A DNA stretch of 64,000 nt. Source: Spirochaetales bacterium (GTDB taxonomy: Bacteria; Spirochaetota; Spirochaetia; Sphaerochaetales; Sphaerochaetaceae). The position numbers and the translations under genes were made by a program. How positions within the stretch are numbered: the first letter of the stretch is position 1; every line of letters starts with the position of its first letter. The DNA lies in NCBI GenBank assembly GCA_017614375.1, contig JAGABZ010000006.1, positions 62,001-126,000 on the forward strand. Reading direction: 5' to 3'. Of the stretch, positions 225 to 16,874 are shown one piece after another. The notes beneath the pieces were generated by a model. The model was not told the origin of the DNA, did not search any database, and saw only the letters and a program-made list of their open reading frames with translations.

Positions 225-1415
225 ATGGCAAAGACCACCGAACTGGCAGCACATCTTAAGAGTCTCAACATCGCCTCGATGTATAAGAACGACTTTTTCT
301 GGACCTGGGACAAGACGGACGACGAAATCGACGCCGTGTTCACCGTCGCCGACGCACTGAGGGACCTCAGGGAGAGAAACAAGAGCATCCGCGTCTTTGA
401 CTCGGGGCTGGGCATCTCGATTTTCCGCGACAACTCGACCCGTACCCGCTTCTCCTTCGCCTCGGCGTGCAACCTCCTGGGGCTTGAGGAACAGGTGCTG
501 GATGAAAAGGTCAGCCAGATCGCCCACGGCGAGACGGTCCGCGAGACGGCCAACATGGTCAGCTTCATGGCCGACGTGGTCGGAATCCGCGACGACATGT
601 TCATCGGCGAGGGACACAAGTACCAGAAGACCTTCATCGACGCATGCGACTACGGCTACCGTCACGGCATCCTCGAGCAGCGTCCGACCCTGGTCAACCT
701 CCAGTGCGACGTCGACCATCCGACCCAGTGCATGGCCGATTTGCTCCATGTGATCCACACCTTCGGCGGTGTGGAAAACCTCAAGGGCAAAAAAGTCGCG
801 ATGACCTGGGCCTACAGCCCCTCCTACGGCAAGCCCTTGTCCGTCCCCCAGGGGGTGATCGGGCTTTTCACCCGCTTCGGCATGGACGTGACGCTGGCCC
901 ATCCCCAGGGCTACGAGGTGATGCCCGAGTGCATCGAGGTGGCAAAAAAGAACGCTGAGCACAGCGGCGGCAGTTTCAGGCAGTGTAACAGCATGGACGA
1001 GGCCTTCAGGGACGCCGACATCGTCTATCCGAAATCCTGGGCGCCGTTCGCCGCGATGGAGGAGCGTACCAGACTCTATCAGAAGGGGGACAAGGCCGGA
1101 ATCGACGCCCTCGAGAAACGGCTGCTTGCCCAGAACGCCGAGCACAAGGACTGGACCTGCAGCGAGGAAAAGATGAAGCTCACGCGCGACGGAAAGGCTC
1201 TGTATCTCCACTGCCTGCCGGCCGACATCTCGGGCCTGAGCTGCCCCGAGGGCGAGGTCGATTCCTCCGTCTTTGACCGCTACCTCGACCCGCTGTACAA
1301 GCAGGCGAGCTTCAAGCCCTACATAATCGCCGCCATGATCTTCCTCGCCCAGATCAAGGACCCCGCCCGGGCCCTGCTTGCCCTGGACAGCGCCCCGGAG
1401 CGCAAGAGGTTCTAG
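225..1415 (+). CDS. ygeW: Knotted carbamoyltransferase YgeW
   Basis: The 396-residue protein belongs to the aspartate/ornithine carbamoyltransferase superfamily, YgeW branch. The carbamoyl-phosphate loop reads FRDNSTRTRFSF (about residues 67-78). HPTQCMADL is the second phosphate-binding element, and WAYSPSYGKPLSVPQG is characteristic of YgeW. HCLPAD near the C terminus is the usual HCLP motif. Length fits the family. ATG at 225 follows a weak purine-rich stretch (caggagc). In gut anaerobes YgeW is encoded with ygeX, ygeY, hydA and ssnA in purine/urate degradation clusters; the natural acceptor is not settled. Only ygeY is visible as a neighbour. Confidence 0.93.
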   Translation: MAKTTELAAHLKSLNIASMYKNDFFWTWDKTDDEIDAVFTVADALRDLRERNKSIRVFDSGLGISIFRDNSTRTRFSFASACNLLGLEEQVLDEKVSQIAHGETVRETANMVSFMADVVGIRDDMFIGEGHKYQKTFIDACDYGYRHGILEQRPTLVNLQCDVDHPTQCMADLLHVIHTFGGVENLKGKKVAMTWAYSPSYGKPLSVPQGVIGLFTRFGMDVTLAHPQGYEVMPECIEVAKKNAEHSGGSFRQCNSMDEAFRDADIVYPKSWAPFAAMEERTRLYQKGDKAGIDALEKRLLAQNAEHKDWTCSEEKMKLTRDGKALYLHCLPADISGLSCPEGEVDSSVFDRYLDPLYKQASFKPYIIAAMIFLAQIKDPARALLALDSAPERKRF

Positions 1416-1431
1416 ATTCACCCGGGACGTG

Positions 1432-1460
1432 TTGAACAACACGGACCTTTCGGCTATAGT
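1432..1460 (+). promoter_or_regulatory. Promoter of the metK leader
   Basis: A -35 box TTGAAC (1432-1437) and a -10 box TATAGT (1455-1460) are separated by 17 bp. This places the transcription start near 1467, right at the 5' strand of the riboswitch P1 helix. The -35 box lies inside a 6-bp hairpin (CGTGTT...AACACG) that could weakly terminate ygeW. Confidence 0.7.
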
Positions 1461-1466
1461 TGGCTC

Positions 1467-1550
1467 ACCATTAAGAGTGTGCGAGAGACAAGCTCTGTGA
1501 CCACACAGCAACCTGCCCGGGGCAAGGTGCTAATGCTTGACGGCGATGGG
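1467..1550 (+). promoter_or_regulatory. S-box (SAM-I clan) riboswitch upstream of metK
   Basis: The conserved S-box core is readable: AAGAGTGTG, GAGAGAC, AGCTCTGTGACC, CAGCAACC, and AAGGTGCTAA after a short TGCC/GGCA P3 hairpin. GTGTG (1477-1481) pairs with CACAC (1502-1506) as P2. P1 can form between CCATT (1468-1472) and GATGG (1545-1549). The P4 hairpin expected after GGTGCTAA is missing or reduced to about 3 bp, more like the SAM-IV or SAM-I/IV variants. The downstream gene makes SAM, so the riboswitch should switch metK off when SAM is abundant. Confidence 0.88.
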
Positions 1551-1570
1551 AAGATTCAACTGTTGCTCGA

Positions 1571-1596
1571 CCCATCCGCCCGATGGGTTTCTTTTT
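1571..1596 (+). terminator. Riboswitch-controlled intrinsic terminator
   Basis: CCCATC (1571-1576) pairs with GATGGG (1582-1587), followed by TTTCTTTTT. The 5' arm CCCATC can pair instead with GATGGG at 1545-1550, the 3' strand of riboswitch P1. P1 formation with SAM bound frees the terminator; P1 opening gives the antiterminator. This is a complete attenuation switch. Confidence 0.85.
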
Positions 1597-1635
1597 GGGC
1601 TCGGGGGCCTGAGGCCCGCAACCTGGGAGGGAAAA

Positions 1636-2727
1636 GTGAGCAAAATCATTTCAAGTGAATCCGTAAACATCGGACATCCGGACAAGACCTGCGACACCAT
1701 CGCCGACGCGTTTCTCGACGAAGCGCTGAGGCAGGATCCCGACAGCCAGATGGCAGTCGAGTGCGCAATCAAGAGCGACAGGCTCTTTATCTACGGCGAA
1801 GCCACGACCAAGGCCAGCATCGACTACGAGGCCATAGCCCGCTCCGTGCTGAAGGACATCGGCTACAAGAACGAGTTCATAATCGACAAATACATAACGG
1901 AGCAGAGCCCCGACATCCATCAGGCAGTGGTCAAGACCGAGCTGATGGCCAACGACCAGGGCATGGTCTACGGCTATGCCACCGACGAGACCCCGCAGTT
2001 CATGCCGCTTCCGATCATGGTCGCCCACAGGCTGATGAGGCAGTACGATTCCTACCGCCGCACCACGGACGACCTGTTTCTGGCCGACGCCAAGTGCCAG
2101 ATCTCGGTGGACTACGACAACGGCATCGACCCGAAGCACATCGAGACGGTGCTGATTTCCGTATCCCACGACCCGTCGCTGGACAATGGGGAAATCCACC
2201 GCCTGATTACCGAAAACGTGATAAACCCGGTGCTCAGTGAGTACTCACAGTACGCCGATGAGAACACCATGCTGAAGATCAACCCCTCGGGCAAGTTCAC
2301 CATCTGGGGAAGCTTCAGCGACTCGGGCTGCACCGGACGCAAGATCGTCGTCGACACCTACGGCGGCATCGGCCGGGTGGGCGGGGGTTGCTTCAGCTCC
2401 AAAAACGCCACCAAAATCGACCGCAGCGCCGCCTATTACGCCCGCTACGTTGCGCGGAACATCGTCAGCCACCATCTGGCCCGCCGCTGCGAGATCCAGG
2501 TGGCCTATGCAATCGGCGAGGCGGACCCGGTGAGCATCTACTACGAGACCTTCGGCACCGAGTTGGTCCCGATTGCGCAGATAAAGAGCTATGTCGCGCA
2601 GAACTTCAGCTTCAGGCCTTCGGACATCATCCGGGAGCTGGGCCTGACCCGGCCGATCTTCAAGCCGACGGCGTGCTTCGGTCACTTCGGTCGTCCGGAG
2701 TTCCCCTGGGAGCAGGACAAGTCCTGA
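1636..2727 (+). CDS. metK: S-adenosylmethionine synthetase
   Basis: Makes SAM from methionine and ATP. GTG at 1636 is chosen because it follows a strong GGGAGGG site (1625-1631) and begins at the conserved N terminus (VSKIISSESVNIGHPDK); the open frame upstream is riboswitch. The product is 363 residues, slightly shorter than usual (about 380-400). Family motifs present are HPDK, DQG (NDQGMVYGYATDE), GRKIVVDTYGG and DRSAAYYARYVARNIV. The P-loop-like GGGAFSGKDPTK motif appears as GGGCFSSKNATK, and the segment before GRK is SFSDSGCT, so this is a divergent MetK. Its 3' end overlaps the convergent lnt by 68 bp. Expression is controlled by the upstream riboswitch. Confidence 0.93.
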   Translation: MSKIISSESVNIGHPDKTCDTIADAFLDEALRQDPDSQMAVECAIKSDRLFIYGEATTKASIDYEAIARSVLKDIGYKNEFIIDKYITEQSPDIHQAVVKTELMANDQGMVYGYATDETPQFMPLPIMVAHRLMRQYDSYRRTTDDLFLADAKCQISVDYDNGIDPKHIETVLISVSHDPSLDNGEIHRLITENVINPVLSEYSQYADENTMLKINPSGKFTIWGSFSDSGCTGRKIVVDTYGGIGRVGGGCFSSKNATKIDRSAAYYARYVARNIVSHHLARRCEIQVAYAIGEADPVSIYYETFGTELVPIAQIKSYVAQNFSFRPSDIIRELGLTRPIFKPTACFGHFGRPEFPWEQDKS

Positions 2728-4315
2728 CCGCCCTCACCGCCGCCAGGAGCAGAACCCCGGCTACCGATGCCAGACACATCCAGGCAAACCAGTCACCCAG
2801 GAGGGTGTACAGTGTCTTGCCCTGATATACCGCGACCTCATAGACAGCCCAACCCTCGGTGAACGGCTCGATGGTCCCGACCCGTTCGCCCCAGGGGGTT
2901 ATCATGCAGCTCATGCCGCTGTTGGTGCTGCGCACGGTCGTTTTCTTGTTTTCCACCGACCGGAACAGCCCCAGAAGCATGTGCTGCATCTGCGCCGAAA
3001 CCGCTCCGGACCAGCTGTCGTTGGAGAGGTTCAGAAGCAGGTCGGAGCCGGCGTGGACGAAGTTGCGGGAGATATAGCCGAATGTATCCTCAAAGCAGAT
3101 TGAGGTCGAGAACGTGTACCCGTCGTATTCGAAGACCTTGGACTCATGCCCTTCGAGCCACCACTGGAAGTCGTGGGAGCGCAGGAACTGAGTGAAGGCC
3201 GGCATCAGTTCCTGATAGGGGAAAAACTCGGTGAACGGCACAAGATGCTGCTTGCGGTAGGTCCCCAGAATCTGCCCGTCGGCAAAGAGGATGACGCTGT
3301 TGTAGTCGATGCGGTTCCAGTCGCCGTTCTGATCGTAGGGGCCCTGTTGCGGGTCGGCTATGACCCCTTCGGGATTGCCCGTTACCAGCGGGACACCCAG
3401 CTCCAGACCGAAGCGGACGAACTCGTCGACCATTTTGGCGGTGGCCTTGTGGCTGGGGTAGGCGGTGTGCCAGGCCACCGAGGGGACAAAAGCTGTCTCC
3501 GACCAGATCACCATGTCCGGCTCCTCCTGCATCGCCTCTTCCGTCAGCTTTTTAAGCAGTTCGAAGTTGTGCAGGTATTGGTCGTAACCGCCCTTCCATG
3601 TGTCGCTGTTGTGCTGTATCGCCGCCACCCGGATTACGGTCTGCGGCTCTCTGGATTTCCACACGGCGATGTCGATTGCGCCGTAGCCCAGACTCAGCAG
3701 CCAGATGCCGAGGATGCAGACCAGGTCAATCCAGCGCCTCCCCGGCGGTGTGCCTTGCGGGTCTTCGCACTCGGCAATCCTGCCGGCAACGAAGGTCTGG
3801 GGTAGCACGACCAGGAAGTTCAGCCCCCAGATTCCGGTGATGTCGGTAATCTGTATGGCAGGCAGTACGCTGTACAGGGCCGAGCCTGCCTGTCCGTAGG
3901 GGTAGGCCAGAAAGCCCACCTGGCAGAGGTAGGTCGCCGCCCCGTAGGCCAGTGCCTGGAAAAAGTAGCCCCAGCGCCCCGAACAGCGGTACACGGCTTT
4001 AAGCGCGTTGAAGATTATCGCGACCTCGATGCCCTTGCCGACGGCGCAGATGTAGATGGCCAGCTGGTGAAAGGTGCTGAGCCAGTAGTTGTAGATGCTG
4101 TAAAAACCGGCGCCGAAGGCCAGCCCGTACAGCCAGACGAGGGACCAAGGGGCGCGGTCGATGACGTAGAACACCGGCACGAGGGCCAGCAGGGCCAGTG
4201 CGGCGTTTCCCGAGTCGTCGTACATGCCGGGGAAGGCCCTGGCGTAAACCACCGCCGAGATTCCCAGCAAAACCAGTTCGTACACGAATGTCAGCAGAGT
4301 CCTGCGGTTCCTCAT
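2660..4315 (-). CDS. lnt: Apolipoprotein N-acyltransferase
   Basis: Transfers the third acyl chain to the N-terminal cysteine of lipoproteins in the inner membrane. The 551-residue protein starts with several hydrophobic segments (about residues 8-220). A periplasmic carbon-nitrogen hydrolase domain follows, carrying the triad Glu (WSETAF), Lys (YRKQHLVPFTEF) and Cys (SICFED), and a last membrane helix near the end. The ATG has no Shine-Dalgarno sequence and sits 6 nt after a -10-like box (leaderless candidate). The C terminus overlaps the end of metK on the opposite strand by 68 bp. It transcribes divergently from rubrerythrin across repeat array A. Confidence 0.93.
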   Translation of the reverse strand: MRNRRTLLTFVYELVLLGISAVVYARAFPGMYDDSGNAALALLALVPVFYVIDRAPWSLVWLYGLAFGAGFYSIYNYWLSTFHQLAIYICAVGKGIEVAIIFNALKAVYRCSGRWGYFFQALAYGAATYLCQVGFLAYPYGQAGSALYSVLPAIQITDITGIWGLNFLVVLPQTFVAGRIAECEDPQGTPPGRRWIDLVCILGIWLLSLGYGAIDIAVWKSREPQTVIRVAAIQHNSDTWKGGYDQYLHNFELLKKLTEEAMQEEPDMVIWSETAFVPSVAWHTAYPSHKATAKMVDEFVRFGLELGVPLVTGNPEGVIADPQQGPYDQNGDWNRIDYNSVILFADGQILGTYRKQHLVPFTEFFPYQELMPAFTQFLRSHDFQWWLEGHESKVFEYDGYTFSTSICFEDTFGYISRNFVHAGSDLLLNLSNDSWSGAVSAQMQHMLLGLFRSVENKKTTVRSTNSGMSCMITPWGERVGTIEPFTEGWAVYEVAVYQGKTLYTLLGDWFAWMCLASVAGVLLLAAVRAVRTCPAPRGTPDDRSDRSTPSA

Positions 4316-4321
4316 GGGGAT

Positions 4322-4350
4322 ACTATGACCCCAAATTCTCCGCCTTTCAA
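4322..4350 (-). promoter_or_regulatory. Leaderless-type promoter of lnt
   Basis: On the minus strand, -35 TTGAAA (4350-4345) and -10 CATAGT (4327-4322) are 17 bp apart. The -10 box ends exactly 6 nt before the lnt ATG (4315-4313), so the predicted transcript starts at or within 1-2 nt of the start codon. No ribosome-binding site is visible. Confidence 0.6.
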
Positions 4351-4370
4351 CACCTCTTGTCCGCCAGAGC

Positions 4371-4492
4371 TGGCCTCGTTTTGCAAGAATTGCAAAAAAG
4401 TGGCCAAATCATTGGCCTCTCTGTGACCAAAACGCAAAAACGAGGCCAGAAATTTGGCCTCGTTTTGTAAAAAGTGCTGAAAGTAGGCCAAA
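4371..4492. repeat. Array A: three tandem inverted-repeat units, 42-bp period
   Basis: GGCC cores start at 4372, 4402, 4414, 4444, 4456 and 4486: steps of 30 and 12 bp alternate exactly, giving a 42-bp period. Each unit is an inverted repeat (TGGCC...GGCCA; TTGGCCTC...GAGGCCA; TTGGCCT...AGGCCAA) with an A/T-rich interior of about 22-26 nt. Adjoining arms form two 16-bp palindromes (4402-4417, 4444-4459). The array fills the gap between divergent lnt and rbr. The last arm coincides with where the rbr -35 box should be. Confidence 0.85.
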
Positions 4493-4514
4493 CCCGGCCT
4501 TCGGATGCTATAAT
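4486..4514 (+). promoter_or_regulatory. Rubrerythrin promoter overlapping array A
   Basis: A perfect TATAAT is at 4509-4514. With a 17-bp spacer the -35 hexamer would be GGCCAA (4486-4491), which is the last arm of array A and a poor sigma-70 match. A bound array could block or activate this promoter; that is inference. Confidence 0.55.
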
Positions 4515-4552
4515 CCAAAGAGCAAGCGGCGGGAAGCCGCGTGGAGGGAAAC

Positions 4553-5092
4553 ATGGAACTCAAGGGATCAAAGACCGAACAGAATCTGAAAACAGCTTTC
4601 GCCGGTGAATCGCAGGCGAGAAACAAGTACACCTACTACGCTTCAAAGGCCAAGAAGGACGGCTACGAGCAGATTGCCCGGATTTTCACCGAGACTGCCG
4701 ACAACGAGAAGGAGCACGCCAAGATCTGGTTCAAACTGCTCAACGGAGGCAGCGTTCCATCTACCGAGGAGAATCTGCTTGAGGCGGCGGACGGCGAGAA
4801 CTATGAGTGGACGGACATGTACGCCACATTCGCCAAGGAGGCCAGGGAAGAGGGCTTTGACGACATCGCCGCCCTGTTTGAGGGTGTGGCGGCAATCGAA
4901 AAGCACCACGAGGAGCGCTACCGCAGACTGCTGCAGAATGTGAAGGAGGGTCTGGTCTTCTCCAAGGACGGGGACAGAGCCTGGATCTGCGCCAACTGCG
5001 GACACATCCACTTCGGAAAGGAAGCCCCGGAATCCTGCCCGGTCTGCAACCATCCCAGATCGTACTTCAGCCTGCTGAACGAGGAGTACTGA
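4553..5092 (+). CDS. rbr: Rubrerythrin
   Basis: Non-haem di-iron peroxidase that reduces hydrogen peroxide in anaerobes. The ATG at 4553 follows GGAGGG; a GTG at 4541 lies inside that ribosome-binding site and is rejected. The 179-residue protein has a four-helix ferritin-like domain (about 1-140) with [13 protein letters not shown], an EKEH motif, and EKHHEERY supplying di-iron ligands. A C-terminal rubredoxin-like domain binds one iron through CANC and CPVC. Full length for the family. It stands alone between array A and an ABC transporter operon. Confidence 0.96.
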
Positions 5093-5171
5093 ACCGCCTT
5101 TACAAAAGGGCCGGAAACGGGTATCCTCTGAATGATTCTATGCAAAAGAACATCTCAGAGGTTTTTTCCGT

Positions 5172-6131
5172 ATGATTGAAGGAATATTCGTTGACGGCCT
5201 GATTTTCTCCATCATGGTGCTCGGGGTGCTGATCAGCTTCCGCCTGATGGACCTGGCCGACCTGACCTGCGACGGCTCGTACGCCACCGGTGCCGCGGCC
5301 GCCGCCATGTGTCTCAAGTCCGGCTGGGGAATCGGGCTTTCGCTTTTGGCGGCATTCGCCGTGGGCATCCTCGCCGGAATCGTCACCGCCCTGATCCACA
5401 CCCGCCTCAAGGTCCCAGGGCTGCTGGCCGGCATCATCACGATGACGATGCTCTACTCGGTCAACATCCGCATCCTCGGCGGCGCCAACGTCCCGCTTCT
5501 GAACATCAACAAGTTCTACACGGTCGTCCCATCCTGGTTCCCGTTCCTGGGCAAGGTCTGGGCGTCTCTGGCGGGCACGGCCATTGTTGTCCTGGGAATC
5601 AAGGTCCTCTATGATCTGTTCTTCAAGACCGACCTCGGTGTGGCGATCGGGGCCATGGGCGCCAACGAGCAGGTTGTCATCAGCCAGGGGATGAACCCCG
5701 AGATTCTCAAGGTAATCGGTCTGGGCCTGTCTAACGGCCTGATTGCCCTTTCCGGCGGCCTGCTGGCACACTACCAGGGATTTGCCGACGCCAACCTGGG
5801 CACCGGCATGGTCGTCCAGGGCCTGGCGGCGATAATGCTCGGCGAGTTCCTTTTCTCGACCAACAAACTGCCCCTGCAGAGCCTGCGGGTCATGCTCGGA
5901 GCCCTGATTTACAAGGCCCTGATGTACTTCGGCCGCAAGTACGGATATCTGATCGGCATCACCCCGAACGACTTCAAGCTGCTGACCGGTGTGCTGGTCA
6001 TCATTTCGCTGATAATCGCCAAGTCCCGCACCAGCGCCTCCGACGCGGGAGCCCGGAAAAAGGCGATGACTGCCCTCTCCGGGGCAGGGCGGCCCTCCGG
6101 CACCGGAGCGGGGGAGGCGGACAATGCTTGA
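5172..6131 (+). CDS. TrpY-like ABC transporter permease (copy 1)
   Basis: Integral membrane subunit of 319 residues related to the TrpXYZ-type family (COG4120, branched-chain/sugar permease fold). The N-terminal RLMDLADLTCDGSYATGAA matches the copy at 8045 (DIADLTVDGSFATGGA). About eight to ten hydrophobic segments are seen, and the tail after residue 295 is charged and Gly/Ala-rich. An AGAGG site precedes the ATG. It overlaps the ATPase gene by 8 bp. This cassette has no binding protein of its own and probably shares the one at 7071. The substrate is unknown; amino acids or a purine-like solute are possible. Confidence 0.85.
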   Translation: MIEGIFVDGLIFSIMVLGVLISFRLMDLADLTCDGSYATGAAAAAMCLKSGWGIGLSLLAAFAVGILAGIVTALIHTRLKVPGLLAGIITMTMLYSVNIRILGGANVPLLNINKFYTVVPSWFPFLGKVWASLAGTAIVVLGIKVLYDLFFKTDLGVAIGAMGANEQVVISQGMNPEILKVIGLGLSNGLIALSGGLLAHYQGFADANLGTGMVVQGLAAIMLGEFLFSTNKLPLQSLRVMLGALIYKALMYFGRKYGYLIGITPNDFKLLTGVLVIISLIIAKSRTSASDAGARKKAMTALSGAGRPSGTGAGEADNA

Positions 6132-6912
6132 AATCTCCCATCTGACCAAAGTCTTCCACCCCGGAACGGTAAATGAAAAGGTCGCCCTGAATGACGTGAA
6201 CCTCCATGTCGGAGCGGGCGAGGTGGTCTGCATCATCGGCTCCAACGGAAGCGGAAAGAGCACCCTGTTCAACATGATCAGCGGTACCTATCCGGTCACC
6301 GGCGGAACCATCGTCCTCGACGGAAAGGACGTGACTTCCTCCGCGGAGTACAGACGAGCCTTTACCATCGGCCGGATATTCCAGGACCCGACAAAGGGCA
6401 CCGCGGGCAAGATGAGCATTGAGGACAACCTGATTACCGCCAGCCGAAAGGGAATGAGGGGCCTGAGAATCAGCCTGAATGACAGAAAGAGGGCTGAATT
6501 CAGGGCGCTGCTCGAGCCGATCGGGCTTCAGGACCGGCTGGGCGACAACGTAGGCCTGCTCTCCGGCGGCCAGCGCCAGGCTCTGACATTGCTGATGACC
6601 GTAATCTCAAATCCCAAACTGATTCTTCTGGACGAGCATACCGCCGCCCTCGACCCGGGCAACGCAGACACTGTGATGGCCCTGACGCAGAAGTACATCA
6701 GCCAGTATAACCTGACAGCCCTGATGGTGACGCACAACATGCAGCTGGCTATCGACTACGGTACCCGCCTGATCATGATGGACTCGGGCAGGATCATCCT
6801 CGATGTGCAGGGGGACGAGAAGCGCCGCCTGACGGTCGGGAGCCTGGTCGAGGTCTTCAGGAGCATCAAGAGCAGGGATTACGCCTCGGACAGGGGACTG
6901 CTGACAATCTGA
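6124..6912 (+). CDS. TrpZ-like ABC transporter ATP-binding protein (copy 1)
   Basis: Cytoplasmic ATPase of 262 residues paired with the preceding permease. Walker A is GSNGSGKST (about 39-47), the Q-loop is IFQDP, the signature is LLSGGQRQAL, Walker B with catalytic Glu is LILLDEHTAALDP, and the switch His is in MVTHNM. The opening MLEISHLTKVFHPGTVNEK is nearly identical to the copy at 8955, so the two cassettes come from a duplication. The family uses DEHTAALDP rather than DEPT. Confidence 0.9.
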   Translation: MLEISHLTKVFHPGTVNEKVALNDVNLHVGAGEVVCIIGSNGSGKSTLFNMISGTYPVTGGTIVLDGKDVTSSAEYRRAFTIGRIFQDPTKGTAGKMSIEDNLITASRKGMRGLRISLNDRKRAEFRALLEPIGLQDRLGDNVGLLSGGQRQALTLLMTVISNPKLILLDEHTAALDPGNADTVMALTQKYISQYNLTALMVTHNMQLAIDYGTRLIMMDSGRIILDVQGDEKRRLTVGSLVEVFRSIKSRDYASDRGLLTI

Positions 6913-7011
6913 GCTGATTTCGTAATTTGTTTAGATGGCAGGAGTTCTGATGATTGTTGCAACAGAAATGTATATTTTTTGTATTCTCATGCAGAAAAAT
7001 GTAAATACCTG

Positions 7012-7040
7012 TTGAAAAACTCCGGCCTGCGGATTAGAAT
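7012..7040 (+). promoter_or_regulatory. Promoter of the second TrpXYZ-like cassette
   Basis: TTGAAA (7012-7017), a 17-bp spacer and TAGAAT (7035-7040) lie 30 bp before the binding-protein ATG, with a GGGGG ribosome-binding site between. The 158-bp gap upstream (6913-7070) is A/T-rich and holds no gene; two ATG-rich stretches are not open frames. Confidence 0.75.
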
Positions 7041-7070
7041 CACAACATACTCACCATCAGGGGGATTATT

Positions 7071-8033
7071 ATGAAAAAACTGCTCGGAATCGTACTAGTA
7101 CTGGCACTGGTTATCGCGCCGGTGTTCGCCAAGGGTGACAAGGAAGCCCAGAATTCCGGAGCAAAGTATAAGGTCGGAGTCGTCCAGCTGGTGCAGCATC
7201 CTGCCCTGGATGCCGCCACCGAAGGCTTCAAGGAGGCCCTGAAGGCCGAATTCGGAGATGATGTGGCCTTTGCCGAAGGCAACGCCTCCGGCGACGTCAG
7301 CACCTGTTCGACCATCGTCAACGGTTTCATCGCCTCGGGTGTGGACCTGATCATGGCAAACGCCACTCCGGCCCTGCAGGCCGCAGCCGCGGCGACGGCG
7401 ACTATCCCGGTTCTGGGAACCTCGATCACCCACTACGCTCCGGCACTGGAACTGGACAGCTGGAACGGCACCGTCGGGACAAACGTCTCCGGGACCAGTG
7501 ACCTGGCTCCGCTCGATGCCCAGGCGGCGATGGTAAAGGAGTGGTTCCCCGATGCCAAGACCGTCGGACTGATCTACTGCTCCGCCGAGGCGAACAGCAT
7601 CTTCCAGATCGAGGAGGTGGAGAAGTACTTCAAGGAACTCGGGCTGGAGACCAGGCGCTTTGCCTTTACCGACACCAACGACATCGCCTCGGTGACCCAG
7701 AAGGCCGCCGACGCCTCGGACGTAATCTACATCCCGACTGACAACACCGCCGCCTCGAACACCGAAGCCATCGCCAACATCCTGGTGGCCTCGAAGACTC
7801 CGGCAATCTGCGGCGAGGAGGGCATCTGCGCCGGCTGCGGTGTGGCGACTCTCTCAATCAGCTACCATGACCTGGGAATCCTCACCGGACAGATGGCGGC
7901 GGCGATTCTCAAGGGCGAGCAGAAGGTCTCCGAGATGCCGATCGGCTATGCCTCTGCGACGAAGAAGTACAACCCGAAGATGTGTGAAGCCCTCGGAATC
8001 ACTCCGCTTGCGGGTTATGAGCCTATTGTATAA
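7071..8033 (+). CDS. TrpX-like ABC transporter substrate-binding protein
   Basis: Secreted solute receptor of 320 residues, COG2984 type (ABC_sub_bind). Residues 1-20 are a signal peptide, followed by KGDKEAQNSG, the charged start typical of spirochaete binding proteins; no lipobox Cys is present. Two Rossmann-like lobes follow, with YKVGVVQLVQHPALDAATEGF at the start and DVIYIPTDNTAASNTEAIAN in the second lobe, a family hallmark. It is the only receptor for two permease/ATPase pairs, at 5172 and 8045. Confidence 0.9.
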   Translation: MKKLLGIVLVLALVIAPVFAKGDKEAQNSGAKYKVGVVQLVQHPALDAATEGFKEALKAEFGDDVAFAEGNASGDVSTCSTIVNGFIASGVDLIMANATPALQAAAAATATIPVLGTSITHYAPALELDSWNGTVGTNVSGTSDLAPLDAQAAMVKEWFPDAKTVGLIYCSAEANSIFQIEEVEKYFKELGLETRRFAFTDTNDIASVTQKAADASDVIYIPTDNTAASNTEAIANILVASKTPAICGEEGICAGCGVATLSISYHDLGILTGQMAAAILKGEQKVSEMPIGYASATKKYNPKMCEALGITPLAGYEPIV

Positions 8034-8044
8034 GATAACGGACT

Positions 8045-8962
8045 GTGGAATTCCTGACTTCGCTTCTTAAAGCAACCCCCGGGGCGATAGCCCAGGGGAC
8101 CCTCTGGGGTATCATGGCTATCGGCGTGTTCATTACCTACAAGGTGATGGACATCGCCGATCTGACCGTCGACGGTTCTTTTGCCACCGGAGGGGCGGTC
8201 TGTGTCGTGCTTATCCGCGCAGGAGTGGGTGCCGTGCCCGCTGTTCTGGCGGCGATGCTCGCCGGTGCCCTGGCCGGATGCGTCACGGCCCTGCTTCACA
8301 CCCGCTGCGGAATCCCCGCCATCCTTTCGGGGATTCTTACCCAACTGGCTCTTTACTCGGTCAACCTGAGAATCATGGGCAGCAGGGCAAACACTCCGGT
8401 CAGCGTGGACAAGTACAGCCTCATCGTCTCCCAGCGCTACGTGCTGGAGGGCTCGTTCAGGAATCCCATCCCCATCGTGTTTCTCATCACCGCAGTGTTC
8501 ATCATGTTCCTCTACTGGTTCTTCGGAACCGAAAGAGGCTGCGGGATGAGAGCCTCCGGAGCCAATCCCCACATGGCCCGCGCCCAGGGAATCAACGTCA
8601 AGAACGACATAGTCCTGGCGCTGATGTTCTCAAACGCCCTGGTGGCCCTCTCCGGTGCCCTGCTGGCCCAGTATCAGGGCTCGGCGGACGTGAACATGGG
8701 ACGCGGAGCCATCGTCATCGGACTGGCCGCAGTCATCATCGGGACCAGTTTGTTCGGCAAGGTTTTCCGCAACTTCGCCCTCAGGCTCCTCGGTGTCTCC
8801 CTCGGGGCGATAATCTACTACATGGTCCTCCAGGTGACCCTCCAGCTGGGACTGGACACCAACGACCTCAAGCTGGTTTCGGCGGCCATCGTCGCAGTGT
8901 TCCTGTCGGTGCCGTATATTCAGAAGCACGTCAGACAGAGGGGAGGGCGCAGGCATGCTTGA
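8045..8962 (+). CDS. TrpY-like ABC transporter permease (copy 2)
   Basis: Membrane subunit of 305 residues with several hydrophobic segments; paralogue of the gene at 5172. The GTG at 8045 begins a protein with the expected N terminus (VEFLTSLLKATPGAIAQGTL). It sits 11 bp after the binding-protein gene and overlaps the ATPase gene by 8 bp. MDIADLTVDGSFATGGA and GSADVNMGRGAIVIGLAAVIIG are conserved between the copies. A basic tail (HVRQRGGRRHA) ends the protein. Confidence 0.88.
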   Translation: MEFLTSLLKATPGAIAQGTLWGIMAIGVFITYKVMDIADLTVDGSFATGGAVCVVLIRAGVGAVPAVLAAMLAGALAGCVTALLHTRCGIPAILSGILTQLALYSVNLRIMGSRANTPVSVDKYSLIVSQRYVLEGSFRNPIPIVFLITAVFIMFLYWFFGTERGCGMRASGANPHMARAQGINVKNDIVLALMFSNALVALSGALLAQYQGSADVNMGRGAIVIGLAAVIIGTSLFGKVFRNFALRLLGVSLGAIIYYMVLQVTLQLGLDTNDLKLVSAAIVAVFLSVPYIQKHVRQRGGRRHA

Positions 8963-9752
8963 GATCCGCAACCTCTCCAAGACCTTCCATCCCGGCACGG
9001 TCAACGAAAGGCTGGCCATCGACAATGTCTCGCTTACCCTCAACGACGGAGATTTCGTCACCGTCATCGGCGGGAACGGGGCGGGCAAGTCGACTCTGCT
9101 GAATCTGATTGCCGGTGTTTTCTTTCCGGATTCGGGGTCGATTGTCATCAACGGCCGCGACGTGACGGCTCTGCCCGAGTACAAGAGGGCGCCGTTTCTC
9201 GGCAGGGTATTCCAGGATCCGATGATGGGAACCAGCCCCACCATGCTCATCGAGGAGAATCTGGCCATAGCAAACCGACGCGGGCTTAGGCGCACTCTGA
9301 AGTGGGGAATAACCGAAAAGGAGAGGGAAGACTTCAAAAAGGCCCTAAAGGGGTTTGACCTGGGGCTTGAGGACCGCCTCACCTCAAAGGTCGGCCTGCT
9401 TTCCGGCGGCCAGCGTCAGGCCCTGACATTGCTGATGGCGGTGATGCGCCGTCCCGAGTTGCTGCTTTTGGACGAGCATACCGCGGCCCTTGATCCGAAA
9501 ACGGCGCAGAAGGTGCTCGGCATGACTGAAAAGATAGTCGGAAACGATACTCTGACGACGATAATGATCACCCACAACATGAAGGACGCCATCGAGCACG
9601 GCAACAGGCTGATCATGATGGACGCCGGCCGGATTGTCGCCGACATCAGCGGTGAGCAGAAGCGCAACCTCACAGTGCCCTATCTGATGGAGCTGTTCTC
9701 CTCCGTAAGCGGAAACGCCGAGGCGAACGACTCGCTGCTTTTGTCCAAGTAA
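8955..9752 (+). CDS. TrpZ-like ABC transporter ATP-binding protein (copy 2)
   Basis: ATPase of 265 residues with Walker A GGNGAGKST, signature LLSGGQRQAL, Walker B LLLLDEHTAALDP and switch His in MITHNM. It opens with MLEIRNLSKTFHPGTVNER, close to copy 1 at 6124, and ends the SBP-permease-ATPase operon. A convergent gene ends 19 bp after its stop, with no strong terminator hairpin in between. Confidence 0.9.
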   Translation: MLEIRNLSKTFHPGTVNERLAIDNVSLTLNDGDFVTVIGGNGAGKSTLLNLIAGVFFPDSGSIVINGRDVTALPEYKRAPFLGRVFQDPMMGTSPTMLIEENLAIANRRGLRRTLKWGITEKEREDFKKALKGFDLGLEDRLTSKVGLLSGGQRQALTLLMAVMRRPELLLLDEHTAALDPKTAQKVLGMTEKIVGNDTLTTIMITHNMKDAIEHGNRLIMMDAGRIVADISGEQKRNLTVPYLMELFSSVSGNAEANDSLLLSK

Positions 9753-9771
9753 AGGGGACGGAATCAGGATT

Positions 9772-10227
9772 CTATCTGAGTTTTGCTTCGAACTGCTTCC
9801 TGTCCAGAAGCTCGAAGAACAGTGTACGCCCGTCTTTGAGTCTGACCAGGGTGACCAGGCGGCGCAGGATTCTCTCCGCGGTCCCGGCGGGTTTCAGACA
9901 CTCGGGGTCTCCGGTGCGGAAAAACGATACTGCCCTGACTTTTGAGACTTCGGTGACCGATTCGACGTCGGCCGGGGTGAATGAGCCCTGAAGCTTCTCG
10001 TACTCAGGCTCGTTCTTTCTTTTGGGAAGTTTGTAGCCCAGCAGGGTCGGGCGGTGCTCGAAGTCCTCGTACCACAGGACAGAGTCGATTTCATAGAGGA
10101 AAACGCCGTACTCGCGGAGGTTCCTGCCGTCGCAGAACCATGTGCTGTAGGTTCTCCAGCCGACCTTGCCGCCGCGTCTGCTTTCGATTTCCGAGAGGAA
10201 GTCCGCGGGGTTGCTGTTGTCTGTCAT
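9772..10227 (-). CDS. Conserved hypothetical protein, 151 aa
   Basis: Not recognised. The start at 10227 (MTDNSNPADF) is preferred over longer frames because GGAG lies 8 nt upstream and the extension would run into the divergent promoter and gene. The protein is soluble, with no signal peptide, and rich in Glu, Arg and aromatic residues. Visible landmarks are GGKVGWRTYSTWFCDGRNL (a WRT-YST-W-D pattern) and a Lys/Arg-rich middle (YKLPKRKNEPEYEKL). It ends with a beta-rich segment (LVRLKDGRTLFFELLDRKQF). It lies divergent to the methyltransferase gene. Confidence 0.6.
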   Translation of the reverse strand: MTDNSNPADFLSEIESRRGGKVGWRTYSTWFCDGRNLREYGVFLYEIDSVLWYEDFEHRPTLLGYKLPKRKNEPEYEKLQGSFTPADVESVTEVSKVRAVSFFRTGDPECLKPAGTAERILRRLVTLVRLKDGRTLFFELLDRKQFEAKLR

Positions 10228-10254
10228 CTTCTTCTCCAAGTCCTTTGCTTTGTG

Positions 10255-10260
10255 TATAAT
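10255..10260 (+). promoter_or_regulatory. -10 box for the methyltransferase gene
   Basis: A perfect TATAAT in the 87-bp gap between the divergent genes at 10227 and 10315. The -35 region is weak. The start site would be about 10267, so the GTG at 10315 has a leader near 48 nt carrying CAGGA. Confidence 0.55.
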
Positions 10261-10314
10261 ACCACAGATGCCGCCGTCGGCGGAACAACGCAGTTCACTA
10301 TCAGGACCGAAGCG

Positions 10315-11973
10315 GTGGAATTCTTCGAAAAGGATTTCGGAAAGATACTCAAGCACAACGCGCTTCAGATGCGCCGGCTCTTTATCGCCACGGACACCGA
10401 CTGCGGTCGTGTTTATGACCGGAATCTGGAGCAGTATCCCGTGACGGTCGACCTATACGGTCCTTTTGTCCGCATCACCGACTACAGCGATTCCGGTCTG
10501 GACGATGAAAAGGCCGCCGAGGTCATCGATATCTGCCGGCGGATGCTTTATGTCGAAAAGGACCGGGTAATTCTCCAGCGCCGCCCGAAAAGGGAGGGCA
10601 GGGAGCAGCACGAACTGCAGGACGAACAGGCATTGACCGTGGACGTGAAGGAAAACGGCCTGACTTTCCGGGTGGACCTGACGAGCCATATCGACACCGG
10701 GCTTTTCCTGGACCAGGTGAAAAACCGGATGATGGTCCGCTCAAGAAGCGCCGGCGCTGACGTGCTGAATCTGTTCTCCTACACGGGAAGTTTCTCCGTC
10801 TATGCCGCTGCGGGGGGGGCCAGGTCGGTCACCTCTGTCGACTTGTCGAACACCTACACCGCCCAGGCGCGGGCTAATCTCGGCGCAAACGGTTACAGCG
10901 GAGACAATTACGCCTGTATCTGCGCCGACGCCCTTTCTTTCGTGACCGAGGCGGCGGCAGAGCACAGGAAATACGACATCATAGTCTTTGACCCGCCCTG
11001 CTTTTCAAACAGCAGGAAAATGGATTATGACTTTGATGTCCAAAGGGACTACGGGCGCTGGCTGGGAAAACTGTACGGGATCCTGCGAAAGGGGGGCTTC
11101 ATCCTCTTTTGCACGAACCTGACAGGGTTCCGGATGAACGCCGCGCTGAAGAAAAAAGCCGGGCTGAGGGAAATCACCGTCAGTTCCCGGGCTGAGGGAT
11201 TCACGCACCGCCAGGCTGCGGTGAGGAGTTGGATTTTGGAAAAGGATGATGATTATCTGACGCTGGACTGGGATGATGCAGAGCCGGCGGACGGTGCCGG
11301 CAGAGGCACATCGAAGGGAGGCCGGGTCAAGTCTTCACCGGACTACGGAAAGAACGAATGGAAACCGGATCGTCCCCGCCGTGACAATGACAGGCGGCCT
11401 GCTTACCGCGACCGCGATGACGGATACCGTGGCGACAGGCCCCGGCGCGACTACAGGCGTGAGGGCTCCGAGAGGGATTCATACCGCCGTGACGACAGGT
11501 ACCGCCGCGATGACCGCTCCAGGCGTGATGAAGGGGGACGTGATTCCTACCGGCGTGACGACGGCTACCGCAGGGATGAGCGCCGCCGGGACTATGACGC
11601 CCGTCCCCGCCGCGAAGGCTCTTCGTACAGGGACGATTACAAGAGAGACGGTTACAGGAGGGACGACTATAAGAGGGACGATTCCCGCCGCCGTGAGGAT
11701 TCCGGTGAATACAGAAACTCCGAGCGCCCCCGCAGGGACTACCGCCGCGATGACCGGGAACGCGACTTCCGGGAGCGCCCCTACAGCGACCGCCCGCGCC
11801 GCGAATACAGAGATTCCGACAGGCCTGCCCGCCGCGCCCAAGGCGGGGATGACAGAAAACCGGCGAAGCAGTCCAGACCGTACGGCTATGATTCGTTCAA
11901 GCCGGCCCGCGACCGGAAGGACTCCAAGATGTTCTTCTGGCTGGACGAGGAAGACGACAAGAAAGACAAGTAA
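10315..11973 (+). CDS. RlmK-like 23S rRNA methyltransferase with Arg/Asp/Tyr-rich tail
   Basis: A class I SAM-dependent methyltransferase resembling the C-terminal (RlmK) half of RlmL, which makes m7G2069. The frame is open far upstream, but GTG at 10315 follows AGGA and starts where the family does (EFFEKDFGKILKH). Landmarks are YDRNLEQYPVTVDLYG, HIDTGLFLDQ, the SAM loop LNLFSYTGSFSVYAA, VDLSNTY, and the catalytic FDPPCFSNS. Near residue 320 the domain ends. About 230 residues of low complexity follow, dominated by RRDD, YRRD and DRPRR blocks, then a short acidic end (FFWLDEEDDKK). The tail is probably disordered and RNA-binding (inference). glnS follows 25 bp later. Confidence 0.85.
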   Translation: MEFFEKDFGKILKHNALQMRRLFIATDTDCGRVYDRNLEQYPVTVDLYGPFVRITDYSDSGLDDEKAAEVIDICRRMLYVEKDRVILQRRPKREGREQHELQDEQALTVDVKENGLTFRVDLTSHIDTGLFLDQVKNRMMVRSRSAGADVLNLFSYTGSFSVYAAAGGARSVTSVDLSNTYTAQARANLGANGYSGDNYACICADALSFVTEAAAEHRKYDIIVFDPPCFSNSRKMDYDFDVQRDYGRWLGKLYGILRKGGFILFCTNLTGFRMNAALKKKAGLREITVSSRAEGFTHRQAAVRSWILEKDDDYLTLDWDDAEPADGAGRGTSKGGRVKSSPDYGKNEWKPDRPRRDNDRRPAYRDRDDGYRGDRPRRDYRREGSERDSYRRDDRYRRDDRSRRDEGGRDSYRRDDGYRRDERRRDYDARPRREGSSYRDDYKRDGYRRDDYKRDDSRRREDSGEYRNSERPRRDYRRDDRERDFRERPYSDRPRREYRDSDRPARRAQGGDDRKPAKQSRPYGYDSFKPARDRKDSKMFFWLDEEDDKKDK

Positions 11974-13987: not shown

Positions 13988-14015
13988 ACAAACCGGGGTA
14001 GTGCCCCCGGTTTGT
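13988..14015. terminator. Hairpin between convergent genes, likely terminator
   Basis: ACAAACCGGGG (13988-13998) pairs perfectly with CCCCGGTTTGT (14005-14015) around a 6-nt loop, 12 bp after the stop of the minus-strand gene. No long T run follows on either strand, so it may act as a bidirectional pause or RNA-stabilising stem rather than a classical terminator. Confidence 0.6.
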
Positions 14016-14027
14016 ATGGGTTTCCGC

Positions 14028-15587
14028 TCAGTCGATCTGCCGGATGCCTGCGAGGATTTTCTCCTGGGGGCGTCGGCGCGGGTCGATGCGGATCTCGACG
14101 CGGGAGACGACCCTGGTCAGGATGGCGGCGATGATGAAGTACATGATTGCCGTCAGGATCAGGGGGAAGAACGCCTCGTAGGTGCGGCTGCGGACCAGGT
14201 CGCTTATGCGGGTCAGGTCCAGTACGGAGATGTATCCGACGACGGCCGTTTCCTTGATCAGGGTGACGATTTCGTTACGGTACAGCGGCAGGAAGTGTCC
14301 GGCGGCCTGGGGGAGGATGATTCTGAAGAAGCTCTGGTTGTCGGAGTAGCCCAGGGCGGTGGAGGCCTCGTACTGGCCGCGGCCGACCGCGTTGGTTCCG
14401 ACGCGAAGCATCTCGAACACCGAGCAGGCGAAAATCAGGGAGAATCCGATGATCGAGATCCACATGCCGTCCAGACGGGAGCTGCCGAAGATGATGTAGT
14501 AGAGAATCATCAGCAGCAGGACTGTCGGCATGCCGTGTACCAGCCAGAGGAAAAATCCGGTGATCTTGTTGGGGATTACCCTGCCGTGACGGCAGAGCAT
14601 GAAGGCCCCGAAGCCGACCGCCGTGCCGATGATGATCGAAAGGATTGTAATGACCAGGGTCACGCCGATGCCCTGCAGGAAGAGCTTCCAGCGGTCCTCG
14701 CGGATGAACGTCTTGAAGAAGCTGTTTGCGATGCGCTGGAAGAAGTTCAGTTCGCTGGTGTCCTCGCCGAGGATGATGACCAGGACCGGGCAGGTGTAGT
14801 AGATGTCGGACAGGGTTCCCGTCTCGTTTCTTTCCTCACTGATGACGATGTTCATGCCGATGTCGAACTTGCCCGTCTCAACCCCCGGAGCGATGGCGTC
14901 GAAGGGGATTTCGGAGAAGTTCGGGGTGTAGCCGTACGCCCGGCAGAAACGGCAGACGAAGTCGACGTCGAATCCGGCCAGACGGCCGTTGCTGACAAAG
15001 GAGAACGGCTCATAGCCGCCCTCGACGGCTACGTTGATGATTCCGTTCTCGCCGGTGAAGTTGCCGATGTCACAGGTGTCGTTGACCGGGTCGAAGTCGG
15101 CAATCCAGTAGTCGTACAGCCAGTCGAGCAGGCCGTTGGCGCGGCTGTCCCGGATGAACTCGTTGAGCTGGGCCAGGAGGGTTGCCTGCTTGTCGTTGTT
15201 TCCGATGATGCAGCTGGCGTCGATGTATCCGGCCACTTCCTCAAGCCTGTCCAGCTCGGGGTGGTTCGCCTTCTGAACGCCGAAGCCGACCTCCTCGACG
15301 AGGTACGCCGAGACCTTGCCCGAGCGAAGCGCCTGAATCATGTCGTTGGGCATGGTGAAGTACTTGAACTCGGTGTCCGGGATGCGGTCCTTGATCAGCT
15401 CCTCATAGAGGACGCCGGTCTGGACCGCGATTTTCTTTCCGTTGAGGTCCTCAATGGTTTTGAACTCGGGAGTGTACTCCTCAGCTGTTTCTGCATCCGG
15501 GCTGTCCGCGGCGAAGAGGCAGACCGGCAGTAGGAGGATCAGGACTGCCAGAAGGGCTTTCTTTGCGATGTTGGAAATGCGTCTCAT
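14028..15587 (-). CDS. Amino-acid ABC transporter: binding-protein segments fused to permease
   Basis: One 519-residue polypeptide combines receptor and channel. Residues 1-26 are a signal/membrane anchor. Residues 43-162 look like the second lobe of a family-3 binding protein (DLNGKKIAVQTG, GLLDWLYDYW). Residues 183-270 look like the first lobe (NVAVEGGYEPFSFV, LAGFDVDF, FDIGMNIVISEERN). The order is thus reversed relative to a normal receptor: either a circular permutation or two truncated receptors. Residues about 300-505 are a His/Glu-type permease with the EAA-like ALGYSDNQSFFRIILPQA. The ATPase gene lies 11 bp upstream in the same operon. Substrate: probably a polar amino acid. Confidence 0.88.
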   Translation of the reverse strand: MRRISNIAKKALLAVLILLLPVCLFAADSPDAETAEEYTPEFKTIEDLNGKKIAVQTGVLYEELIKDRIPDTEFKYFTMPNDMIQALRSGKVSAYLVEEVGFGVQKANHPELDRLEEVAGYIDASCIIGNNDKQATLLAQLNEFIRDSRANGLLDWLYDYWIADFDPVNDTCDIGNFTGENGIINVAVEGGYEPFSFVSNGRLAGFDVDFVCRFCRAYGYTPNFSEIPFDAIAPGVETGKFDIGMNIVISEERNETGTLSDIYYTCPVLVIILGEDTSELNFFQRIANSFFKTFIREDRWKLFLQGIGVTLVITILSIIIGTAVGFGAFMLCRHGRVIPNKITGFFLWLVHGMPTVLLLMILYYIIFGSSRLDGMWISIIGFSLIFACSVFEMLRVGTNAVGRGQYEASTALGYSDNQSFFRIILPQAAGHFLPLYRNEIVTLIKETAVVGYISVLDLTRISDLVRSRTYEAFFPLILTAIMYFIIAAILTRVVSRVEIRIDPRRRPQEKILAGIRQID

Positions 15588-15598
15588 TCCGGGCCTCC

Positions 15599-16705
15599 TT
15601 ATTCCTCAACCCAGCCGAAGCTGATCTTGATTCTGCGCGAGAACCCGTCCGGGTCGTTCTCAAGTTCGGATTCGGTGTATGTGGTCGTCGGCTCCTGCAG
15701 GAGCAGCTGGAAGAGCTTGCTTTCCGACTCGGCAGCCTTGAACGGCTCGCCGTTGTAGCGTATGTCCATTGTCAGGGTGTCGAGTTTCTCGGAGTACTCG
15801 ACCTTTACGAAGATGTCCGGGGTGTCGGAGTAGGCGGCGATGTTGTTGATGCAGATTTCCTCCAGCGCCATGCTCAGCTTGCTCAGACGCTCGGCCTCGA
15901 TCAACAGCTTTTCGCCGTAGGCCTGGAGCTCCTCGTTGGTCGCCTCGACGTCGAAGTCGGTAGAGGTGATGCGGTAGGTCAGGCTCGAAAGGCGCTGGAT
16001 GAAGCGGCGGGTCTCCTCCTTTTGCGGATGCTCGAAGATCTGCTTCGGGGCGCCCTCCTCGTAGATGACTCCGTCGTGCATGAAGAGGATGCGGTTGGAG
16101 ATCTTGCGGGCGAAATCCATCTCGTGGGTGACGATCATCATGGTGCGGCCCGTCTTGGCCAGGAGCTTGATGACCGACTGGACTTCGCCGATCATGCTCG
16201 GGTCCAGGGCAGAGGTGGGCTCGTCAAAGAGGATGATGTCCGGATCCATCGCCAGGGTGCGGGCGATGGCGATTCTCTGCTGCTGGCCGCCGGACAGTTC
16301 GTCGGGGTAGGAGAAGACCTTTGTCACCAGTCCGACCTGCTGGAGCAGGTACATGGCCTTGTCGTAGGCCTCCTGCCTGCTGCGGCCGAGGAGGGTAATC
16401 TGGGGATTCATGATGTTCTCGATGACGGTCAGGTGCCCGAAGAGGTTGAACGACTGGAATACCATGCCGACCTTCTTGCGGATTTCGTTCAGGTCACAGC
16501 CGGGCTCGGTGATGTCCTGTCCGTCGACGATAATCTGGCCGGAGGTGGGCTCGATGAGCATGTTGATGCACCGAAGCAGGGTCGACTTGCCGGTGCCCGA
16601 GGGGCCGATAATCGAGATTACGTCCCCGTCGTTGATTGTGACATTGATGTCCTGAAGCGGAACGACGTCACCGAATTCCTTTCGCACATGTCTGAGTTCA
16701 ATCAT
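15599..16705 (-). CDS. GlnQ-like amino-acid ABC ATPase with C-terminal HATPase/RsbW-like domain
   Basis: Start taken at 16705 (MIELRHVRKEF), where homology begins; the frame extends to 16774 without conserved sequence. Residues 1-240 are a complete ATPase: Walker A GPSGTGKST (34-42), signature LSGGQQQR (137-144), Walker B ILFDEPTSALDP and switch His in VTHEM. Residues 245-368 are extra: LSKLSMALEEICINNIAAY (274-292) resembles the N-box helix of anti-sigma/HATPase domains. RYNGEPF (316-322) resembles a G1 box, but the G2 glycines are missing. It is cotranscribed with the fused receptor-permease. No clear ribosome-binding site precedes 16705. Confidence 0.85.
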   Translation of the reverse strand: MIELRHVRKEFGDVVPLQDINVTINDGDVISIIGPSGTGKSTLLRCINMLIEPTSGQIIVDGQDITEPGCDLNEIRKKVGMVFQSFNLFGHLTVIENIMNPQITLLGRSRQEAYDKAMYLLQQVGLVTKVFSYPDELSGGQQQRIAIARTLAMDPDIILFDEPTSALDPSMIGEVQSVIKLLAKTGRTMMIVTHEMDFARKISNRILFMHDGVIYEEGAPKQIFEHPQKEETRRFIQRLSSLTYRITSTDFDVEATNEELQAYGEKLLIEAERLSKLSMALEEICINNIAAYSDTPDIFVKVEYSEKLDTLTMDIRYNGEPFKAAESESKLFQLLLQEPTTTYTESELENDPDGFSRRIKISFGWVEE

Positions 16706-16845
16706 TTCGATTGCGTACCACGGCAACACGCGGGAAATCCGGCAACATGCAATCACGGCGCCTGCGCGCCGCAACCGTCAGTTGAACGTCATTCTCCACG
16801 GGATTTTCTGCATGTCACCAAACCCTTTTGTAAATTTGTAAGACC

Positions 16846-16874
16846 CTTATAACGGCAAATCCCCACAGGGTCAA
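16846..16874 (-). promoter_or_regulatory. Promoter of the 14-16.7 kb transporter operon
   Basis: On the minus strand, TTGACC (16874-16869) and TATAAG (16851-16846) are 17 bp apart. Just upstream are two CAATTG hexamers (in TACAATTGTTGACAATTGTC, about 16875-16894), a possible operator. The leader to the ATPase start is about 135 nt and includes a GGAGA followed by a four-codon open frame (ATG ACG TTC AAC TGA) around 16787-16801, noted without assigning a role. Confidence 0.6.

Follow-up and report, generated by a model that had tools for sequence, protein, structure and literature searches.

The window, the whole 64,000-nucleotide stretch of DNA analysed here, comes from a gut-type spirochaete and holds a putative amino-acid importer whose receptor halves are exchanged along the chain. 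A permuted receptor-permease fusion of 519 aa is encoded at 14028..15587 by 519 codons without an internal stop. The gene lies on the minus strand, which the sequence-only reading had left unspecified. Its partner ABC ATPase gene (368 aa; 15599..16705) shares the minus strand and lies upstream, with 11 bases between its end and the permease gene. Opposite the permease and ATPase genes, the plus strand contains long antisense open reading frames at 14001-15533 and 15563-16852, which are probably shadow frames and not genes.

The fusion protein begins with a signal peptide or N-terminal membrane helix (aa 1-27; 15507..15587, minus strand, as are all features below), recognized by a predicted helix at residues 2-27 and a hydrophobic stretch. 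Lobe 2 of the receptor, here N-terminal, occupies aa 41-119 (15231..15467), from IEDLNGKKIAVQTG to AYLVEEVGF, and was placed by phmmer against the PDB, lobe profiles, AF2, and a rotated alignment. The single remaining hinge strand, predicted at aa 120-128 (15204..15230), leads from lobe 2 back to lobe 1, whose closing helices, the usual receptor C-terminus with an invariant W161, follow at aa 129-165 (15093..15203; phmmer and AF2). A bridge at aa 166-180 (15048..15092) joins the old C-terminus to the old N-terminus. The first half of lobe 1, the usual receptor start, spans aa 181-276 (14760..15047), from INVAVEGGYEPFSF to SEERNETGTLSDIYYTCPVLVII, as defined by Pfam, phmmer, and AF2, and contains the predicted ligand-pocket arginine, Arg253 (14829..14831).

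A tether and juxtamembrane helix (aa 277-296, 14700..14759; predicted helix 282-296) run from lobe 1, at its hinge end, into the permease; in relatives the tether measures 10-41 aa. The permease domain is of the BPD_transp_1, HisM/GlnP type and extends over aa 297-515 (14043..14699), as identified by Pfam, NCBIfam, and the PDB match 4yms (E 4e-25). Pfam places BPD_transp_1 at aa 324-501 with 58 bits, above its cutoff, and NCBIfam amino-acid permease models reach E-values down to 2e-32, all below their equivalog cutoffs. The receptor is fused N-terminally to this permease, with the ATPase gene adjacent.

The partner ATPase bears a C-terminal extension of about 125 aa that is weakly GHKL (histidine-kinase-ATPase)-like. 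In the window protein the region lies at 15722..15952 (minus strand) and matches HATPase_c_2 at 21.3 bits, a weak score against a cutoff of 27.4; a match of 21 bits is found in 3 of 19 members. The extension is present in nearly all full-length ATPases beside the main fused family, which total 360-377 aa. ATPases beside ordinary receptors, free permuted receptors, and locus L096 end at about 240 aa.

Both receptor lobes are homologous to family-3 (SBP_bac_3, type II / Cluster F) receptors, and the usual lobe1-lobe2-lobe1 order with two hinge crossings is replaced by lobe2-lobe1-lobe1. Pfam aligns positions 1-94 of the 132-position SBP_bac_3 profile to aa 184-276 and finds no match in the N-terminal part, where lobe 2 is too diverged for detection. 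Comparison with AncQR (4zv1) by phmmer pairs query residues 181-272 with chain residues 9-102, and query residues 40-163 with chain residues 107-232. In the native order these are two swapped stretches (E 1e-19), the best of which covers one half only, whereas restoring the halves to normal order gives a single end-to-end stretch (query 2-220, chain 10-232, E 4e-24). At the level of sequence comparison, the reversed order of the receptor halves is confirmed as real and far beyond chance. Reversed binding-protein lobes fused to a permease had already been read from the letters, at residues 43-162 and 183-270; the swapped AncQR stretches and the rotated alignment bear this out, and the boundaries were correct to within a few residues.

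Reversed lobes may belong to one clamp or to two, and structure prediction of the receptor part had been set as the check between a permuted receptor and the remains of two receptors. For the receptor alone (aa 40-277, with 148 related units), AF2 predicts a single packed two-lobed domain with a pLDDT of 93.3, all five models exceeding 92, and a pTM of 0.88. The full protein, modelled with 77 relatives, has a pLDDT of 83, with the receptor part near 93. For a two-lobed chain of 238 residues, a pTM of 0.88 means that the relative placement of the lobes is confident. The model thus supports packing of the halves as one two-lobed hinged domain, a fold judged from pTM, pLDDT, and secondary structure; it is strong but not final, and AF2 may be biased toward the well-known receptor fold.

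The two lobes could instead be leftovers of two decayed receptors that form no single clamp, and one comparison favours this. The top PDB match of the unit profile (A2) is GlnPQ (6h30), matched at full length across the junction from SBD1 lobe 2 to SBD2 lobe 1, two lobes that are consecutive in the chain yet sit in different clamps. By Foldseek, 238 columns of the model align to this normal tandem with an rmsd of 20.6 A, so the model does not hold the lobes apart in that manner. Foldseek cannot align permuted chains, and TM-scores of about 0.5 therefore show lobe homology, not packing; none of its top PDB matches has the lobe order of the window protein. Against decay, in addition to the single packed domain, stand a receptor-region identity of about 70-75% among spirochaete relatives and the observations on free proteins, bridge length, and the pocket arginine described below, which together leave it very improbable.

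Free-standing versions of the permuted receptor also exist. Among 296 spirochaete genomes, full-length unit matches fall within open frames of 257-311 codons in 34 genomes, a tally of profile matches that normal tandems can also give, with the architecture verified for fetched loci only. All 10 such proteins that were read consist of lobe 2 then lobe 1 only, are small, and are secreted or lipoprotein-like; a permease gene adjoins 8 of the 10. They stop directly after the last lobe-1 strand (for example, ...ASEQVIIIRK), and their existence means that lobe2-lobe1 units are not explicable as pieces that require a neighbour, which argues against both decayed remnants and an exchange of lobes between chains. 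In such an exchange, each clamp of the transporter dimer would combine lobe 2 of one chain with lobe 1 of the other, as the 15-aa bridge would permit in principle. Since the monomer model is also confident, this arrangement is marginally less probable even than decay.

The normally ordered receptor L126 and the permuted receptors L128 (free) and L108 (fused) are mutually best or second-best relatives. After rotation, L126 is 54% identical to the permuted pair across both lobes, and in sequence terms this is the clearest single proof of rotation. On another contig, the window genome encodes a family-3 receptor of normal lobe order (L084 1387-2187, plus strand), accompanied by a permease and an ATPase of its own. 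Because the genome also contains this ordinary operon, the permuted system may have a special role.

A search of genome contigs yielded 80 relatives from Spirochaetales, Clostridia, and other groups, which were mapped using individual profiles of the two lobes and of the permease. Strict (lobe2-lobe1)n-permease alternation with n = 1-5 is found in 81 proteins, a few of them cut by contig ends. One unit is present in 35, two in 28, three in 12, four in 4, and five in 2. Lobe 2 directly follows the signal peptide and lobe 1 is last before the permease. Ten further relatives have n = 6-12; one of these lacks its start, where the contig ends. Larger arrays occur in the phylum of the L079 genome (Synergistales): several genomes there have n = 6 to 8, and L147 has n = 12, with an uninterrupted frame of 3252 codons (1349-11104, plus strand) that encodes twelve permuted receptors and one permease. 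Without exception, the arrays mapped over their whole length follow the (lobe2-lobe1)n-permease order, n spanning 1 to 12. In Pfam annotation they appear as normally ordered receptors with incomplete ends, or lobe 2 goes undetected.

Several variants of the layout were observed among the relatives. In L137 330-4523 (minus), L139 2110-4878 (plus), and L141 1112-3874 (minus), one or more permuted receptors, the permease, and the extended ATPase are fused into single-chain importers. A tblastn search of plasmids returned mostly ordinary receptors and permeases, together with a split relative on Selenomonas ruminantium plasmid pSRC1 (L134 2557-5273, plus), which comprises a free diverged lobe2-lobe1 receptor (WP_014431151.1), a separate permease, and an extended ATPase. 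L106 and L140 were considered as an intermediate lobe1-lobe2-lobe1-permease form and ruled out, their reading frame being cut by a contig end. The first units of many arrays (L034, L035, L049, L147) have diverged from the remaining units; several form a separate branch with a support of 100, and some members lack the pocket arginine. Such first units may have another ligand or a structural role.

Linker lengths indicate which lobes pair. Mapping 23 receptor domains of normal lobe order with the same profiles gave a lobe1-to-lobe2 junction of 1-5 residues (mean 2.3, sd 1.0), short because it is a hinge strand; between units of permuted arrays this junction measures 2-19 residues (mean 9.5, sd 3.6). 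The between-unit linkers are of low complexity, rich in A, S, P, T, and E, and reach 1-42 residues in giant arrays. Inside each unit, the lobe2-to-lobe1 bridge is held at 13-17 residues (sd 1.1), and a (G)ENGTL-like motif is conserved in it. A constant bridge within units and variable linkers between them imply that each lobe2-lobe1 unit is its own clamp, contrary to decay. Going by these lengths, the old hinge in arrays has become a free linker and the old inter-receptor gap an internal bridge. Least probable of all is an array in which the middle receptors run lobe1-lobe2, lobe 2 of the first unit pairs with lobe 1 of the last, and the one-unit window form is a special case: Pfam agrees with it, as in a full SBP_bac_3 match spanning a unit boundary in L037, but the junction it makes a hinge varies over 1-42 aa against a normal fixed 1-5 aa, the bridge is constant, and it is inapplicable to free forms.

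The receptor domain is very probably a naturally occurring, circularly permuted family-3 binding protein that forms a single clamp within the chain of an amino-acid-type ABC importer. The sequence-only reading had offered either a permuted receptor or the remains of two. The AF2 model, the free forms, and the array linkers support the first; the second very probably does not describe the present state and probably describes the origin.

Conservation of the pocket points to the class of ligand. Arg253, at the position following an ITxER motif, is presumably the residue that binds the ligand alpha-carboxylate in family-3, GlnBP-type receptors. This position is R in 143 of 149 units, a conservation that decayed remnants would not predict. 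At the alpha-amino site, where an acidic residue is expected, 125 of 149 units have D or E, and the window protein has E98. Given the conserved arginine and the acidic site, an amino acid is most likely the ligand of the window protein, and the chain would import an amino acid or amino-acid-like compound through an ABC importer. In the 12-unit L147 array, the pocket arginine is retained in 11 of 12 units but residues at the acidic amino-group site are widely variable, a pattern suggestive of different ligands for different units.

A mechanism can be proposed from the chain order, which runs through lobe 2, the hinge strand, the closing helices of lobe 1, the bridge, the first half of lobe 1, and the tether to the permease. 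By analogy with homologous permeases (4yms), the transporter would comprise two receptor-permease chains and two ATPases. Ligand would close the interlobe cleft, the closed receptor domain would dock on the permease, and uptake would be driven by ATP hydrolysis. The permutation is predicted to drop one of the two hinge crossings and to bring both chain ends to the hinge, so that the attachment of the receptor to the channel would be at the hinge edge of lobe 1 and not at a C-terminal helix. With both ends at the hinge, units could be chained or tethered without crossing the closing face of the clamp, a likely benefit for chaining. In relatives, one to twelve whole receptors on each chain would be strung together in this hinge-to-hinge fashion.

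Circular permutations classically arise by duplication followed by trimming of both ends. The full-length match of the unit profile across the 6h30 junction is what this route would leave; when matched to the ordinary single receptors within the 60 best PDB sequences, the same profile almost always gives two swapped stretches. The bridge of the permuted unit is also comparable in length to the natural 14-residue linker in GlnPQ (PMC8025302). A normal receptor tandem likely lost the first lobe of copy one and the last lobe of copy two. In trees of receptor units and of permeases, some permuted forms fall among normal ones, and a single clade of all permuted forms was rejected by an AU test (p 0.0025), subject to the presence of long branches and to a post hoc choice of the group from the tree. 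These results point to more than one event of permutation or of reversion. Tentatively, hinge permutation may be a repeatedly invented route to chainable family-3 receptors, with which some gut bacteria hang up to twelve different ones on a channel.

If this is true, up to twelve different receptors per chain, or 24 per dimer, would turn a single-substrate importer into a broad-catch one, and chain ends at the hinge would allow serial units without blocking closure. Type II receptors already serve the study of two-lobed clamp evolution and closure. The family provides a natural series of normal, permuted free, permuted fused, and permuted array forms, including the 54%-identical normal/permuted pair. 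The series makes it possible to test whether a single hinge strand suffices for closure, why permutation tends to accompany the tethering of receptors, and in what way a single channel serves many receptors. It is also a warning for annotation, since Pfam misreads the arrays or overlooks lobe 2. No report of permuted family-3 receptors was found in the open-access literature, which is weak evidence of absence, and the permuted family-3 receptor is a real, widespread, and apparently undescribed variant.

The family-3 binding proteins AncQR (4zv1) and GlnBP (1ggg/1wdn) share homologous lobes, pocket arginine, and fold with the window receptor and differ in lobe order. The window permease is 28% identical to the 4yms permease in a fold comparison; unlike the window protein, the 4yms permease chain has no fused receptor. 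GlnPQ-type fusions (6h30; PMC8025302) likewise place family-3 receptors N-terminal on a homologous permease with a separate ATPase, and tandems also occur among relatives of the window protein. GlnPQ has the normal lobe order and two receptors per chain, whereas in the permuted family every unit is permuted and there are 1 to 12. The window protein does not have the GlnPQ layout because it lacks the normal lobe order, and its permease stands apart from GlnPQ-like ones in trees. By analogy, the system would nevertheless work like GlnPQ.

Treponema pallidum provides the closest precedent, TpMglB-2 (Tp0684), a naturally permuted glucose receptor designated 'Type Ic / Cluster Bc', for which binding and closure have been measured (PMC4990184). 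Natural circular permutation of an ABC-importer receptor is common to both systems, in spirochaetes and Gram-positive bacteria. The chain of the window receptor is likewise rotated and its fold retained, according to AF2, the L126 pair, and the AncQR rotation. PDB matches of the window receptor are family-3 amino-acid receptors and reveal no homology to type I (Cluster B) sugar receptors. TpMglB-2 is a type I (Cluster B) free lipoprotein that is cut inside the N lobe and gains a hinge crossing, whereas the window receptor is a family-3 (type II) protein that is cut at the hinge, loses a crossing, is fused to a permease, and occurs in arrays. Tethering was suggested by the authors of the TpMglB-2 study to favour permutation (PMC4990184).
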